Below, in pieces: positions 4,376 to 20,326 of a stretch of 22,787 bases of DNA (the stretch's first letter is position 1; each line of letters opens with the position of its first letter). Source of the DNA: a virus. The notes beneath the pieces are model-generated. The model worked only from the letters and a program-made list of their open reading frames with translations. It searched no databases and had not been told where the DNA came from. Both the position numbers and the translations under genes were made by a program. Where the stretch lies: positions 1 to 22,787 of the IMG/VR virus record IMGVR_UViG_3300031578_000361. One strand, 5' to 3'.

Positions 4376-5323
4376 ATGTCCGTTAACGTCTCCACCGCAT
4401 TTGTCCAACAGTATTCCACGAACATTGGAATGCTGTTGCAGCAGCAGGGTTCGCGTCTGCGAACGTCCGTCATGAACTACGCCTTCCAGGGGAAGGCTGC
4501 GAGCGTGATGGAGCAGTTCGGCAGCGTCAACCCGGTGTTCAACCAGGGTCGCCACTCGGATACCCCGCTCATCAGCACCCCCCAGGACAAGCGCTGGGCC
4601 TACCCCAATGACGCCGACTGGGCCGACCTGATCGACCAGCAGGACCGTCTCCGGATGCTCATTGATCCCGCGGGGCCCTACACCATGGCCGGCACCTACG
4701 CCATGGGCCGCGGCATTGATGACGCGATCGTCGCCGGCATCTTCCAGAGCAACAACACCGGTGAGAACGGCACCAGCGCCACGGGTCTGCTCTCGGCCTA
4801 CAACTCCGGTTCTCAGGTGGTGGCCGCCACGGTTGGCGCCGCTTCCGGCAATACCGGCCTGAACGTGGCCAAGCTCCGCGCGGCTCGCAAGATGCTGCTC
4901 GCGGCTGAGGTGGACGTCGAAAACGATCCCCTCTACATTGCCGCCACGGCTCAGCAGCTGGACGATCTGCTCGCTCAGGTCCAGGTCAACAGCCTGGACT
5001 ACAACGAGCGGCCCGTCTTGGTGGATGGCCGTATCACCCGGTTCATGGGCTTCGAATTCATCCACTCCGAGCGCATCCCCGGCGCCGCGAACTTCAACAC
5101 CCTCTACCCCGGCAACAGCACCATCACCGGCTACACCACCGGCACCACCTGGCTGGTCCCCTTCTGGGCCAAGTCCGGTGTCGCCCTCGGCACCTGGAAC
5201 GACATCACGGCCACCGTCGATCGTCGCCCCGACAAGCGCAACTCCTGGCAGGTCTACGTCACCGGCACCTTCGGCGGCACCCGGCTGGAAGAGAAGCGCT
5301 GCGGCTTCATCACCTGCTACTGA
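4376..5323 (+). CDS. Major capsid protein
   Basis: This 315-residue protein builds the icosahedral shell. It matches the podovirus capsid family that includes BPP-1 Bbp17, which has an HK97-type fold. Recognisable stretches are the N-terminal helix FVQQYSTNIGMLLQQQGSRL, the conserved core DTPLISTPQDKRWAYPNDAD at about residues 62-81, and DLIDQQDRLRMLIDPAGPY immediately after. The C-terminal half contains NDPLYIAATAQQLDDLLAQ and VDGRITRFMGFEFIHSERIP, a beta-rich domain typical of these proteins, and it ends in RRPDKRNSWQVYVTGTFGGT. The ribosome site is ctcggagga, five bases before the ATG. Codon use is strongly biased to C-ending codons, as expected for a very highly expressed gene. A cement protein follows after 18 bases. 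Confidence 0.93.
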   Translation: MSVNVSTAFVQQYSTNIGMLLQQQGSRLRTSVMNYAFQGKAASVMEQFGSVNPVFNQGRHSDTPLISTPQDKRWAYPNDADWADLIDQQDRLRMLIDPAGPYTMAGTYAMGRGIDDAIVAGIFQSNNTGENGTSATGLLSAYNSGSQVVAATVGAASGNTGLNVAKLRAARKMLLAAEVDVENDPLYIAATAQQLDDLLAQVQVNSLDYNERPVLVDGRITRFMGFEFIHSERIPGAANFNTLYPGNSTITGYTTGTTWLVPFWAKSGVALGTWNDITATVDRRPDKRNSWQVYVTGTFGGTRLEEKRCGFITCY

Positions 5324-17021: not shown

Positions 17022-19235
17022 ATGACCGTTTCAGCGACGCCTTACAAAGAAAGCTACACGGGGAATGGGGTCACTACCGCCTTCCCAGTGCCGTTCTACT
17101 TCCTCGTGGACACCGACCTGGCGGTAAGCGACGTGGACAACACCGTCACGCCAGCGGTCATCACGCCCCTGGCGATCAATATCGGCTACACGGTGGCGGG
17201 AGCTGGAACGCCTACGGGGGGCGTCGTCAACACGACAGTTCCTGTGGCCGTCGGTCACGGGCTCACCGTGGAGCGATCCCTCGCGGAGGACCAGCCGACG
17301 CATTTCGTGGATGGCGATCCACTTCCAGCTTCGGGCCTGGAGCAGGCGCTGGACCGCATCGTCATGCTCTATCAGCAGGCTAAGGCGGCGCTCGATCGGT
17401 CAGCTAAGTTCGTCGTCGGGAGCACATCCGCTACGGATTTGCCTGAACCTGCTGAGGGCTACGTGCTCGGGTGGGTGAGCGGCAAACTCAGGAACTTGGC
17501 CGCTGCCTCGGCCCAGTTGGCAGCGGATCTCCTCAGCACGGCCATCGGCAAGGGCGCTTCCCTCATCGGCTACCTCGCTCCCTACACGGGGGCTGTGGCG
17601 GTGACTCAGGCATCACAGAATGCAAATACGCTGAATGTTAAGAACTTTGGCGTGGTTGGTGACGGAACGACCGACGATTCAGCGGCCCTGAACGCTTTCT
17701 TCACCAACATGGTCTCGGGCGTGCTGGGCACCTGCAAGCGGGTCATCTTCCCCAACGGTCGCTACAAGATCGGGTCCACCGTCACCATCCCCCCGTTCTC
17801 CGGGGCGTCGATGAACCTTGACCAGCGATCCAGCGATGGTATGGACTGGGAAATCGACTTCTGCCGGTCCTCCATCATCTGCGCTTGTGACCAACCATTC
17901 GCCTTAACCGCTGGAACCTACCCCGCAAGTCGCAACCAGCTATACATCCATGACGGCATCTTTGTCCCTTCGGGTGCCCAGGCCGTAACGGCAGCTTTCT
18001 ACATGACGGGATCGCGGTATTGGCAGATCCAATTCGAGAGGATCAGCGCCAACAAGTGGAATGGAACCTTCGGGACCATCGTCAGCTACTACAACGACAG
18101 CGCCAGTTTCCAGGGCGGCATGATCTCTCTGAAGCATATCGAAGGCATCAACACCGCTAACATCATCACCTTTGGGGCCAATGCCGGAAGCATCGCGGCT
18201 GGGACCAATGTGGTAGATAACTTCCAGATGGAGGATATCTACCACCAGTGCGCGGATGCCTCTAGTAGCACCATCAAACTGACCAGTTTCAACCTATACG
18301 CGTCCAACCTCCAGAAGATCATCACCGCTGGTCTAGGTAAGATCGTGGACGGGAACGGGAACTACATCACGTCAGCAACCATGACGGGCTTCTACTGGGA
18401 GCCTTCTGGGGTTGCAGCGGTAAATGCTCTGGAATGCCAAATCGCCTACTCGACAATTAGCAACTTCAAGGCCATTGCCAATAGCTCCACCCAGACGGTG
18501 CGGTGGCTTGTCGGAGATATACGATTTAGCCGAATCTCAAATGTCCATGTGGATGCATCGAACCTTTCAGGGGCGCATCCTTACTCAAATGGCAGTTACA
18601 TCATCATGTATCTGACCGATGGGCGCGGCAACATTTACGACGGCTACACCCCATCCGAGTGGAATAATTGTCGCGACATCGCCGCTACCAACCGGCTTGG
18701 GACCGTCCTGGGGGTGTCGGATGACATGTGCCTGCTGGACAGTATCGACGCCAACCCTACGGGCATCACAACCAGCACAACCACCATCCTAGCCACCAGC
18801 CCATACAATCTACTTTCCATCCTGGAGGGTGGGACCTCCGTGGTTCTGGATGTCCAGTTCCACGGCTACGGCAGCGACGCCACATCTAAGATGGTGCAGA
18901 ACAATCTGGTCATCGGCACCACCACGGTCAACATCGGCGGTGCGATTACCCTAGGTTCCGGGGCCTACCTATCACGGGCGAAGGTGATCCTGGCACCAGC
19001 TTCTGGATCAACCTGGGATCTGTTCGTCCTCAACTCAGAGTCGATCAACCAGGCGGGGACGATTACGTATTCCAGCATTGGTATGATCCAAGTTGCCTCT
19101 TCCGTGGTGGTCAACTCCACCGATTCTGTGGCGTTGAACGTGGTGACAACCGGGATGTCTGCGGGTGCCGTGTGGCCGATCTCCGCAACCCTGTCCCGCA
19201 TCGGACGCGGGATGGCAAACATGGTCAATCCGTAA
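17022..19235 (+). CDS. Tailspike / tail fibre with pectate-lyase-type beta-helix
   Basis: This 737-residue receptor-binding protein has an aggagatg ribosome site. Residues 1 to about 130 resemble the T7 gp17 tail-attachment domain: a beta-rich opening with TGNGVTTAFPVPFYFLVDTD, a GLTVERSLAEDQPTHFVDGD strand pair, and the helix GLEQALDRIVMLYQQAKAAL. After a linker, FGVVGDGTTDDSAAL (from residue 209) is the classic start of the pectate-lyase-3 beta-helix used by phage depolymerase spikes, followed by VIFPNGRYKIGSTVTIP. The rest is strand-turn repeats, with a Ser/Thr/Val-rich C-terminal part that may aid trimerisation. It probably binds and cleaves host polysaccharide; the substrate cannot be read from sequence. 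No chaperone domain is evident. Confidence 0.85.
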   Translation: MTVSATPYKESYTGNGVTTAFPVPFYFLVDTDLAVSDVDNTVTPAVITPLAINIGYTVAGAGTPTGGVVNTTVPVAVGHGLTVERSLAEDQPTHFVDGDPLPASGLEQALDRIVMLYQQAKAALDRSAKFVVGSTSATDLPEPAEGYVLGWVSGKLRNLAAASAQLAADLLSTAIGKGASLIGYLAPYTGAVAVTQASQNANTLNVKNFGVVGDGTTDDSAALNAFFTNMVSGVLGTCKRVIFPNGRYKIGSTVTIPPFSGASMNLDQRSSDGMDWEIDFCRSSIICACDQPFALTAGTYPASRNQLYIHDGIFVPSGAQAVTAAFYMTGSRYWQIQFERISANKWNGTFGTIVSYYNDSASFQGGMISLKHIEGINTANIITFGANAGSIAAGTNVVDNFQMEDIYHQCADASSSTIKLTSFNLYASNLQKIITAGLGKIVDGNGNYITSATMTGFYWEPSGVAAVNALECQIAYSTISNFKAIANSSTQTVRWLVGDIRFSRISNVHVDASNLSGAHPYSNGSYIIMYLTDGRGNIYDGYTPSEWNNCRDIAATNRLGTVLGVSDDMCLLDSIDANPTGITTSTTTILATSPYNLLSILEGGTSVVLDVQFHGYGSDATSKMVQNNLVIGTTTVNIGGAITLGSGAYLSRAKVILAPASGSTWDLFVLNSESINQAGTITYSSIGMIQVASSVVVNSTDSVALNVVTTGMSAGAVWPISATLSRIGRGMANMVNP

Positions 19236-19278
19236 GCTTGTGCAGCCCTTAGCGCGAAGCAAACTCACCTGATTTTTT
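19236..19278 (+). terminator. Weak terminator candidate after the tailspike
   Basis: Starting right after the tailspike stop, gcttgtgc (19236-19243) can pair with gcgcgaagc (19252-19260) with one bulged base and one wobble, leaving an eight-base loop. A run of six T occurs at 19273-19278, but 12 bases beyond the hairpin, too far for a standard intrinsic terminator. It may be only a partial stop before the lysis genes. Confidence 0.25.
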
Positions 19279-19326
19279 GATCGCAGCAGCCCAGCGATGT
19301 GACCGCCGACAGAAAGGAGAAAGCGC

Positions 19327-19377
19327 ATGAGCTTTGACCAAGCATTCAGCCGACTCATCGCCAGCGAGGGCGCCTAG
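19327..19377 (+). pseudogene. Vestigial second copy of the lysin start (16 codons)
   Basis: An ATG with a good aaaggaga site opens a 16-codon frame, MSFDQAFSRLIASEGA, ending in TAG. It closely copies the first 16 residues of the lysin that starts 119 bases later (MDFDTAFSRLIDSEGG), including the catalytic-position Glu14. The TAG stands where the lysin has TAC for Tyr17. After the stop the similarity ends. It looks like the remnant of a duplicated or replaced lysin gene; a short regulatory leader peptide is the alternative. Confidence 0.6.
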
Positions 19378-19445
19378 CATCCGCACAGCATCCGGAGCGC
19401 CAAGAGGCAGCGGGCTGAAACCCCGCAAACACAGGAGAAAAAGCC

Positions 19446-19919
19446 ATGGACTTCGACACCGCATTCAGCAGGCTCATCGACAGCGAGGGCGGCTACACCA
19501 ACAACCCCGCCGACCCTGGCGGTGAGACCAAGTTCGGGATCAGTAAACGGTCCTACCCTGACGTGGACATCGCCAACCTCACACTCGATGGGGCCAAGGC
19601 CATCTACATGCGTGACTTCTGGAACCCACTGGGGGACGCGCATCCAGCCATCAAGTTCCAGTGCTTCGACTTCGCCGTGAACTCGGGGATTGGCACGGCG
19701 ATCCGCAAGCTCCAACTCGCCGTGGGTGTGGCCGATGATGGCCACTGGGGGCCGCAGAGCGCGGCGGCTCTCGCAGGCATGGACCTCAACGATGTGCTGA
19801 TGCGCTTCGCAGCGCAGCGGCTCATCTTCATGACTTCACTCTCTACCTGGGACTCGTTCGGCAAGGGCTGGGCGCGTCGCATCGCCAAGGATCTTCTTTA
19901 CGCAGCGGAGGATAACTGA
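19446..19919 (+). CDS. Endolysin, GH108 family muramidase
   Basis: This 157-residue cell-wall hydrolase has a caggagaaa ribosome site. The N-terminal half matches glycoside hydrolase family 108: FSRLIDSEGGYTNNPADPGG with catalytic Glu14, then ETKFGISKRSYP, and AKAIYMRDFWNP at about residues 50-61. The C-terminal half matches the peptidoglycan-binding domain often fused to it: FDFAVNSGIGTAIRKLQ, then VGVADDGHWGPQS and a C-terminal FGKGWARRIAKDL. The length is near the family norm. No signal peptide or SAR membrane helix is present, so export should depend on the holin next door. A truncated copy of its first 16 codons lies just upstream. The stop overlaps the holin start as TGATG. Confidence 0.9.
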   Translation: MDFDTAFSRLIDSEGGYTNNPADPGGETKFGISKRSYPDVDIANLTLDGAKAIYMRDFWNPLGDAHPAIKFQCFDFAVNSGIGTAIRKLQLAVGVADDGHWGPQSAAALAGMDLNDVLMRFAAQRLIFMTSLSTWDSFGKGWARRIAKDLLYAAEDN

Positions 19920-20326
19920 TGGACATCACCGGCATCGGCTCGGTAGCGGATCTCGCTTCCGGCATCATCAACAAGATCTGGCCTGACAAGACGCAGGCAG
20001 AAAAAGACCAGATGGCTCAGGCCCTTGCGCTTTTGCAGGGCCAGATCTCCATGAACCAGGGGCAGCTCGACATCAACAAAGTGGAAGCAGCCAACCCCAC
20101 GCTGTTTGTGGCAGGCTGGCGCCCCTTCGTGGGTTGGGTATGCGGCTCGGCTTGCGCGTGGAATTGGGTGGGGCTGCCCATTGCCAAGTTTGGCGCAGCG
20201 GCATTCCATCACGTCATCGACGTGACTCCTGCGGATCTGACGCAGATGCTTCCTCTACTCATGGGCCTTCTCGGCATGGGCGCCCTGCGCACCTATGAGA
20301 AGACCAAGGGTGTTGCCGCCAAGTAA
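19919..20326 (+). CDS. Holin, 3TM gene-transfer-agent type
   Basis: This 135-residue inner-membrane protein is expected to form the lesions that release the lysin. It starts in a TGATG overlap with the lysin, with gcggagga upstream. The N-terminal half is an amphipathic helical region (GSVADLASGIINKIWPDKTQ, then AEKDQMAQALALLQGQ) ending in NKVEAANPTLFVAGWRPFVG. The asparagine-to-WRPFVGW motif at about residues 58-72 is diagnostic of the 3TM holin family. Hydrophobic segments follow at about 66-90 and 108-124 (LPLLMGLLGMGALRTYEK), with a basic C-terminus. Placement between lysin and candidate spanin fits a lysis cassette. Confidence 0.82.
   Translation: MDITGIGSVADLASGIINKIWPDKTQAEKDQMAQALALLQGQISMNQGQLDINKVEAANPTLFVAGWRPFVGWVCGSACAWNWVGLPIAKFGAAAFHHVIDVTPADLTQMLPLLMGLLGMGALRTYEKTKGVAAK

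Follow-up and report, generated by a model that had tools for sequence, protein, structure and literature searches.

A truncated lysin start between the tail fibre and endolysin genes of a tailed phage as a probable recombination scar

Introduction

Mosaic boundaries with short homologous "shoulders" have been analysed in lambdoid phages (PMC2327257, PMC3945230). It was reported there that phage Red-type systems recombine genes that are 22% diverged efficiently (PMC2327257) and that Red-beta requires pairing segments of ~23-27 bp (PMC3945230). A further system for comparison is the endolysin gene bbp2 of Bordetella phage BPP-1, which encodes a related GH108 lysin in a fibre-to-lysin region like the one described here. 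The two lysin genes share 84 nt from the lysin start at 82% DNA identity. Unlike the locus described here, the BPP-1 interval between these two genes contains the mtd/avd/TR/brt cassette, and the BPP-1 annotation lists no stub. Judged by titles and abstract openings, no description of lysin stubs was found among the papers listed.

Here, we describe a short frame between the fibre and lysin genes of a phage known from one IMG/VR virus record, whose whole stretch of 22,787 bases was analysed and is called the window below.

Gene order at the locus

The window covers the late region of a tailed phage, including a head-tail connector, the major head protein, a fibre, a GH108 lysin, and a holin with three transmembrane segments, while a primase gene lies on the strand opposite to the late genes. 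The features around the fibre-lysin boundary are collected in Table 1. The PHROG matches of the fibre protein fall mostly within residues 1-258. The fibre tip (17700-19232) has no relative in the viral_contigs or phages collections, and searches for further fibre anchors or tips returned nothing new.

Table 1. Features of the fibre-lysin region (window coordinates)
Feature	Position	Strand	Remarks
Tail fibre / tailspike gene	17022..19235	+	737 aa; N-terminal part conserved, tip unique; PHROG tail and tail-fibre families, PF12708
Fibre anchor block ADLLSTAIGKGASLIGYLAPYTGAVA	17496..17623	+	left shoulder of the exchanged tip; only fibre DNA in common with L001 (86%) and L002 (89%)
Post-fibre spacer, first part	19233..19261	+	resembles the spacer after the L001 fibre gene; gapped match, shuffle p 0.0005
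Ribosome-site-like AGGAG of the stub	19315..19319	+	7 nt 5' of the stub ATG; from sequence
Lysin 5' stub MSFDQAFSRLIASEGA, then TAG	19327..19377	+	16 codons, ATG at 19327, TAG at 19375-19377, own AGGAG; lysin similarity spans 19326-19376
Linker of 68 nt, stub to lysin	19378..19445	+	contains the lysin ribosome site AGGAG, 19433-19437
GH108 endolysin, intact	19446..19919	+	157 aa; PF05838, E 1.6e-20; phrog_315 endolysin
Holin	19919..20326	+	start codon overlaps the lysin stop; PF11351 GTA_holin_3TM, phrog_3427 holin

The stub and the lysin start

An earlier, sequence-only reading had described the mini frame as a repeat of the first 16 lysin residues with a ribosome site and a start. The frame, site, and start are present, but only 12/16 residues are identical to those of the window's lysin (positions 2, 5, 12, and 16 differ). 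At the DNA level, the stub matches the lysin start MDFDTAFSRLIDSEGGY at 40/51 bases without gaps, and a repeat search returned the pair as 51 nt at 80% with a spacing of 119 bp. When the same 51-nt comparison was made elsewhere in the window, the mean was 13.4 (s.d. 3.5) and the best score 32/51. Because these values lie far below 40/51, a chance likeness of the stub to the lysin was rejected.

The similarity ends at the stop, as had been proposed: the match stops at base 50, and after the TAG the match to the rest of the lysin is not significant (p 0.08). Upstream of the start, the likeness is at chance level when the ribosome site is excluded (p 0.69), and p is 0.10 when it is included. Since the similarity of the flanks is not significant, the block common to both copies extends from about -1 to +50. 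It was also considered whether the linker is a remnant of the lysin interior, which was not accepted given a gapped match with p 0.08; the 68 nt have no convincing relative or donor among the loci compared. A TAG does end the frame where the lysin has TAC, but a point mutation is not required to account for it, and base 51 may already lie beyond the breakpoint.

Glu14 is present in both copies, in line with the earlier observation. It is the Glu of the N-terminal EGG motif; this residue was found in 150/150 GH108 family members and has a putative catalytic role. With 16 codons followed by TAG, the stub lacks enough of the GH108 domain for an enzyme; the function is carried by the intact lysin, which has its own ribosome site.

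Related contigs and the module boundary

The closest lysins are encoded by L001 (98% aa identity) and L002 (96%), both contigs of one metagenome. The window's lysin DNA is 95% identical to that of L001 and 91% to that of L002 over 19442/19446-19921, and the right edge of the shared block is the holin start, with homology stopping at 19921. The only other DNA that the window has in common with these contigs is a fibre anchor of 114-127 nt (86-89%). The portal and tail proteins of the window and of the L001/L002 contigs are only ~24-40% identical, so that the history of the lysin differs from that of the backbone.

Up to the fibre anchor, L001 and L002 align with each other in pieces at ~65-82% DNA identity. 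Their fibre tips and spacers have no common DNA, and the alignment resumes at the lysin ATG with 93.8%; the fibre tips of the window, L001, and L002 lack mutual DNA similarity altogether. The unrelated tips of L001 and L002, together with an alignment that resumes at the lysin start, show that the fibre-lysin boundary in this phage group is a point of module exchange, whose left and right limits are the conserved fibre anchor and the lysin start codon, respectively.

As a separate observation, L001 has in its own fibre-lysin interval (2945-2980) a short frame preceded by a ribosome site, which reads MTRSKTLATLV and then stops. It is unrelated to the lysin and is perhaps the stub of another gene's start, and no longer copy was found among the loci compared.

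Second lysin starts in other records

A second stub was found in contig L163, whose source is a collection of the same type as that of the window's IMG/VR record. Here, the fibre gene is directly followed by a lysin start MNFDTAFNRLIDSEGGY (4415-4525) that agrees with the window's lysin at 46/51 bases; beyond base 52, the sequence is unrelated. The frame stops after 36 codons, the next listed gene is on the opposite strand, and no other GH108 gene was detected in the 39.6-kb record at E up to 10. The L163 stub is independent of the window's stub. The two breakpoints lie at base 50 (window) and base 52 (L163), an agreement that, with n=2, may be a coincidence.

Second starts upstream of an intact lysin are rare. 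The matches listed comprise at least 119 distinct GH108 5' ends fitting one pattern, stubs included, and among these 119 a copy scoring >30/51 within <=1.5 kb upstream is seen for the window's lysin only. All 50 records that were searched over their full length, out of 80 loci listed, contain exactly one lysin start each. In 49 of them the start opens a frame of >=151 aa, and the remaining one is that of L163; as a control, the identical query recovers both copies in the window. Genomes with two lysins, which the sequence-only reading had envisaged, thus did not appear among them.

In viral_contigs, the DNA pattern for this lysin-start group matches only L001, L002, L005, and L163. Such scans can miss, as the anchor scan of viral_contigs omitted the L001 contig even though the L001 anchor fits, and absence in pattern scans is therefore weak evidence. 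A search of genome_contigs yielded one distant lysin. PHROG 24205 has 45 positions, the first 27 of which match the lysin start only (window 19467-19526), so that short lysin-start proteins may exist elsewhere, and this PHROG may represent a recorded but unnamed family of lysin-start mini-proteins. A search with the 27 residues gave 504 records, and no short lysin-start protein was identified in the best 60 plus 60 hits spread over them.

Ancestry of the stub

Over 51 nt, the stub is identical to the L001 lysin at 44 positions, the L002 lysin at 43, the L005 lysin at 42, the L163 stub at 41, and its own neighbour at 40, although 44 against 40 is a small gap and fifty bases give little resolution. 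The longest identical run with the stub measures 23 bases in the L001 lysin and 11 bases in the window's own lysin. The latter differs from L001 and L002, where these two agree, at five sites, and the stub carries the L001/L002 base at all five. This pattern would equally fit a tandem copy that predates a change in the 5' end of the window's own lysin.

Each of the stub residues 2-16 occurs at the same position among 150 family members. In this test, which used the 150 sequences without conditioning on a pattern, random substitution delivers exclusively family residues in 1.75% of simulations starting from L001 (six changes), in 1.1% from L002 (seven), and in 0.16% from the window's own lysin (ten). 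The alanine at position 16 is found in only 1/150 members, and in a stricter version requiring residues seen at least twice, the stub fails at this position. Taken together, the identity ranking, the five sites, and the family residues suggest that the stub acquired its differences while it still belonged to a functional lysin gene and that the truncation followed afterwards.

Two further features of the lysin 5' end were considered and are not claimed. The first is a chimeric start of the window's own lysin. Its first 33 bases show excess mismatches against L001 and L002 (Fisher p 0.004 and 0.001), and a prefix scan gives p 0.017 and 0.002, the best prefix in the first comparison being 198 bases rather than 33. 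At the codon level the excess is gone (p 0.17 and 0.21), and the chimeric start is hence only suggestive. The second is a special island of DNA-level conservation, which was set aside as the conservation is mostly at the protein level: aa identity of the 5' end is 0.76, and the same-codon rate is 0.434 vs 0.375 and 0.460 vs 0.405 in the two largest identity bins.

The ancestry bears directly on a decayed tandem duplication, in which an in-place copy of the lysin, or of its 5' end, arose and the upstream member of the pair lost all sequence beyond codon 16. The sequence-only reading had offered this as an option, and the layout is what such an event would leave, namely a head-to-tail pair 119 bp apart with AGGAG and ATG on each copy. 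The two copies are, however, less alike than the stub is to the L001, L002, and L005 lysins, and their likeness is significant neither 5' of the ribosome site nor past base 50. Moreover, the stub bears no out-of-family residue of the kind expected from drift, and lysin starts are otherwise single among the records searched. We therefore regard a duplication as unlikely.

A proposed one-sided exchange at the boundary

The mini frame is most probably the stub of a real lysin gene that was severed behind base 50 when recombination took place at the border between fibre and lysin. That the conserved 5' end of the lysin bears a recombination scar had been suggested from the sequence, and on the related contigs this is the best-supported reading. 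The first 17 codons are the best-conserved DNA stretch of the gene (0.70 vs 0.45-0.63). Pairing within this stretch would have provided the homologous side of one exchange, whereas the other side would be a non-homologous joint to unrelated DNA just after codon 16. The expected product is an older lysin start, followed first by a 68-nt leader piece that includes a ribosome site and next by a complete lysin gene. As Red-type systems tolerate 22% divergence and pair over 23-27 bp, known phage recombination is able to use such homology.

The last piece to move could have been the fibre tip with the stub, the whole lysin, or the leader with the lysin start. The entry of a new lysin, as the sequence-only reading had it, is thus one option, but the upstream fibre tip is no less mobile. 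Neither a genome with the unscarred arrangement nor a donor of the linker was found.

If this reading is correct, the stub preserves a legible trace of one exchange between genes for host recognition and genes for lysis. A more speculative extension, to which we give little credence at present, is that the first ~50 lysin bases serve as a preferred recombination linker, so that fibre tip (host entry) and lysin (exit) are swapped at one seam, with the truncation at codon 17 seen in the stubs of both genomes reflecting repeated use of the breakpoint. Were the lysin start such a repeated seam, lysin stubs in metagenomes could mark recent fibre/lysin swapping. For annotators, the locus illustrates that a mini frame may have a good ribosome site without being a gene.

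Other explanations

The stub could alternatively act as a leader peptide or upstream frame that tunes the translation of the lysin, as had also been put forward. It has a good ribosome site and ATG, lies 68 nt 5' of the lysin on the same strand, and every residue is lysin-like. Conservation of the 16-codon frame, which would have favoured this idea, was seen in no relative examined, although the collections may omit very close relatives. The predicted RNA fold of 19236-19520 resembles that of shuffled sequence (z 0.27), the 68-nt gap between the stub's stop and the lysin start is long for coupling, and the lysin is preceded by an AGGAG of its own. A regulatory role thus appears improbable, and translation of the stub probably still yields a 16-residue peptide that has no function. 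Two variants were rejected: an RNA attenuator, for which there is no fold signal, and a translational hop from GGC GCC TAG to GGC GGC TAC, given that the lysin is provided with a start and a ribosome site of its own and that special structure is absent. Near the stub, there is no promoter-like site and only one terminator-like site, at chance level.

Homing endonuclease genes and integrative elements leave a restored gene beside a truncated end. The layout of stub and lysin would fit such elements, and the stub could be the footprint of one that inserted at the lysin 5' end, replaced it, and was later lost. The position would be a plausible one, as the tropism cassette of BPP-1 sits between fibre and lysin, and in the interval between fibre and lysin of Acinetobacter phage AbP2 (L261, 1228-1839) an HNH endonuclease gene directly adjoins the lysin start. 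On the other hand, only 68 nt are left, the copies differ at 11/51 bases, unlike the cores of attachment sites, and no mobile element was found at the locus, which makes this origin very doubtful. Least credible of all is an assembly artefact fusing two phage strains: the window is one IMG/VR virus record and L163 comes from a similar collection, but the longest identical run between the copies (11 bases) is too short for a k-mer misjoin, and the lysin-holin side is intact.

Comparison with known systems

Recombination between the fibre and lysin genes, as preferred here, has parallels outside phages. In the Vibrio cholerae type VI secretion effector loci (T6SS; PMC5361080), sequential replacement is described as leaving remnants of earlier genes, as in the window; those loci keep arrays of immunity genes, whereas the window keeps 50 lysin bases only. 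Homology-facilitated illegitimate recombination (PMC3240628) has one homologous side and one that is not, as proposed for the window, and would explain its one good and one ragged joint. This mechanism is described there from bacterial transformation and conjugation, and for the window phage it is a proposal.

The closest likeness in form is to the mosaic boundaries reported from tailed phages, where a short conserved coding block at the module edge is followed by unrelated DNA and related phages carry different modules. Such boundaries usually appear as one clean junction, whereas the window has two copies of the block, the left one truncated at codon 17. The probable scar is ordinary phage mosaicism of a generally known kind, with an unusually clean breakpoint.
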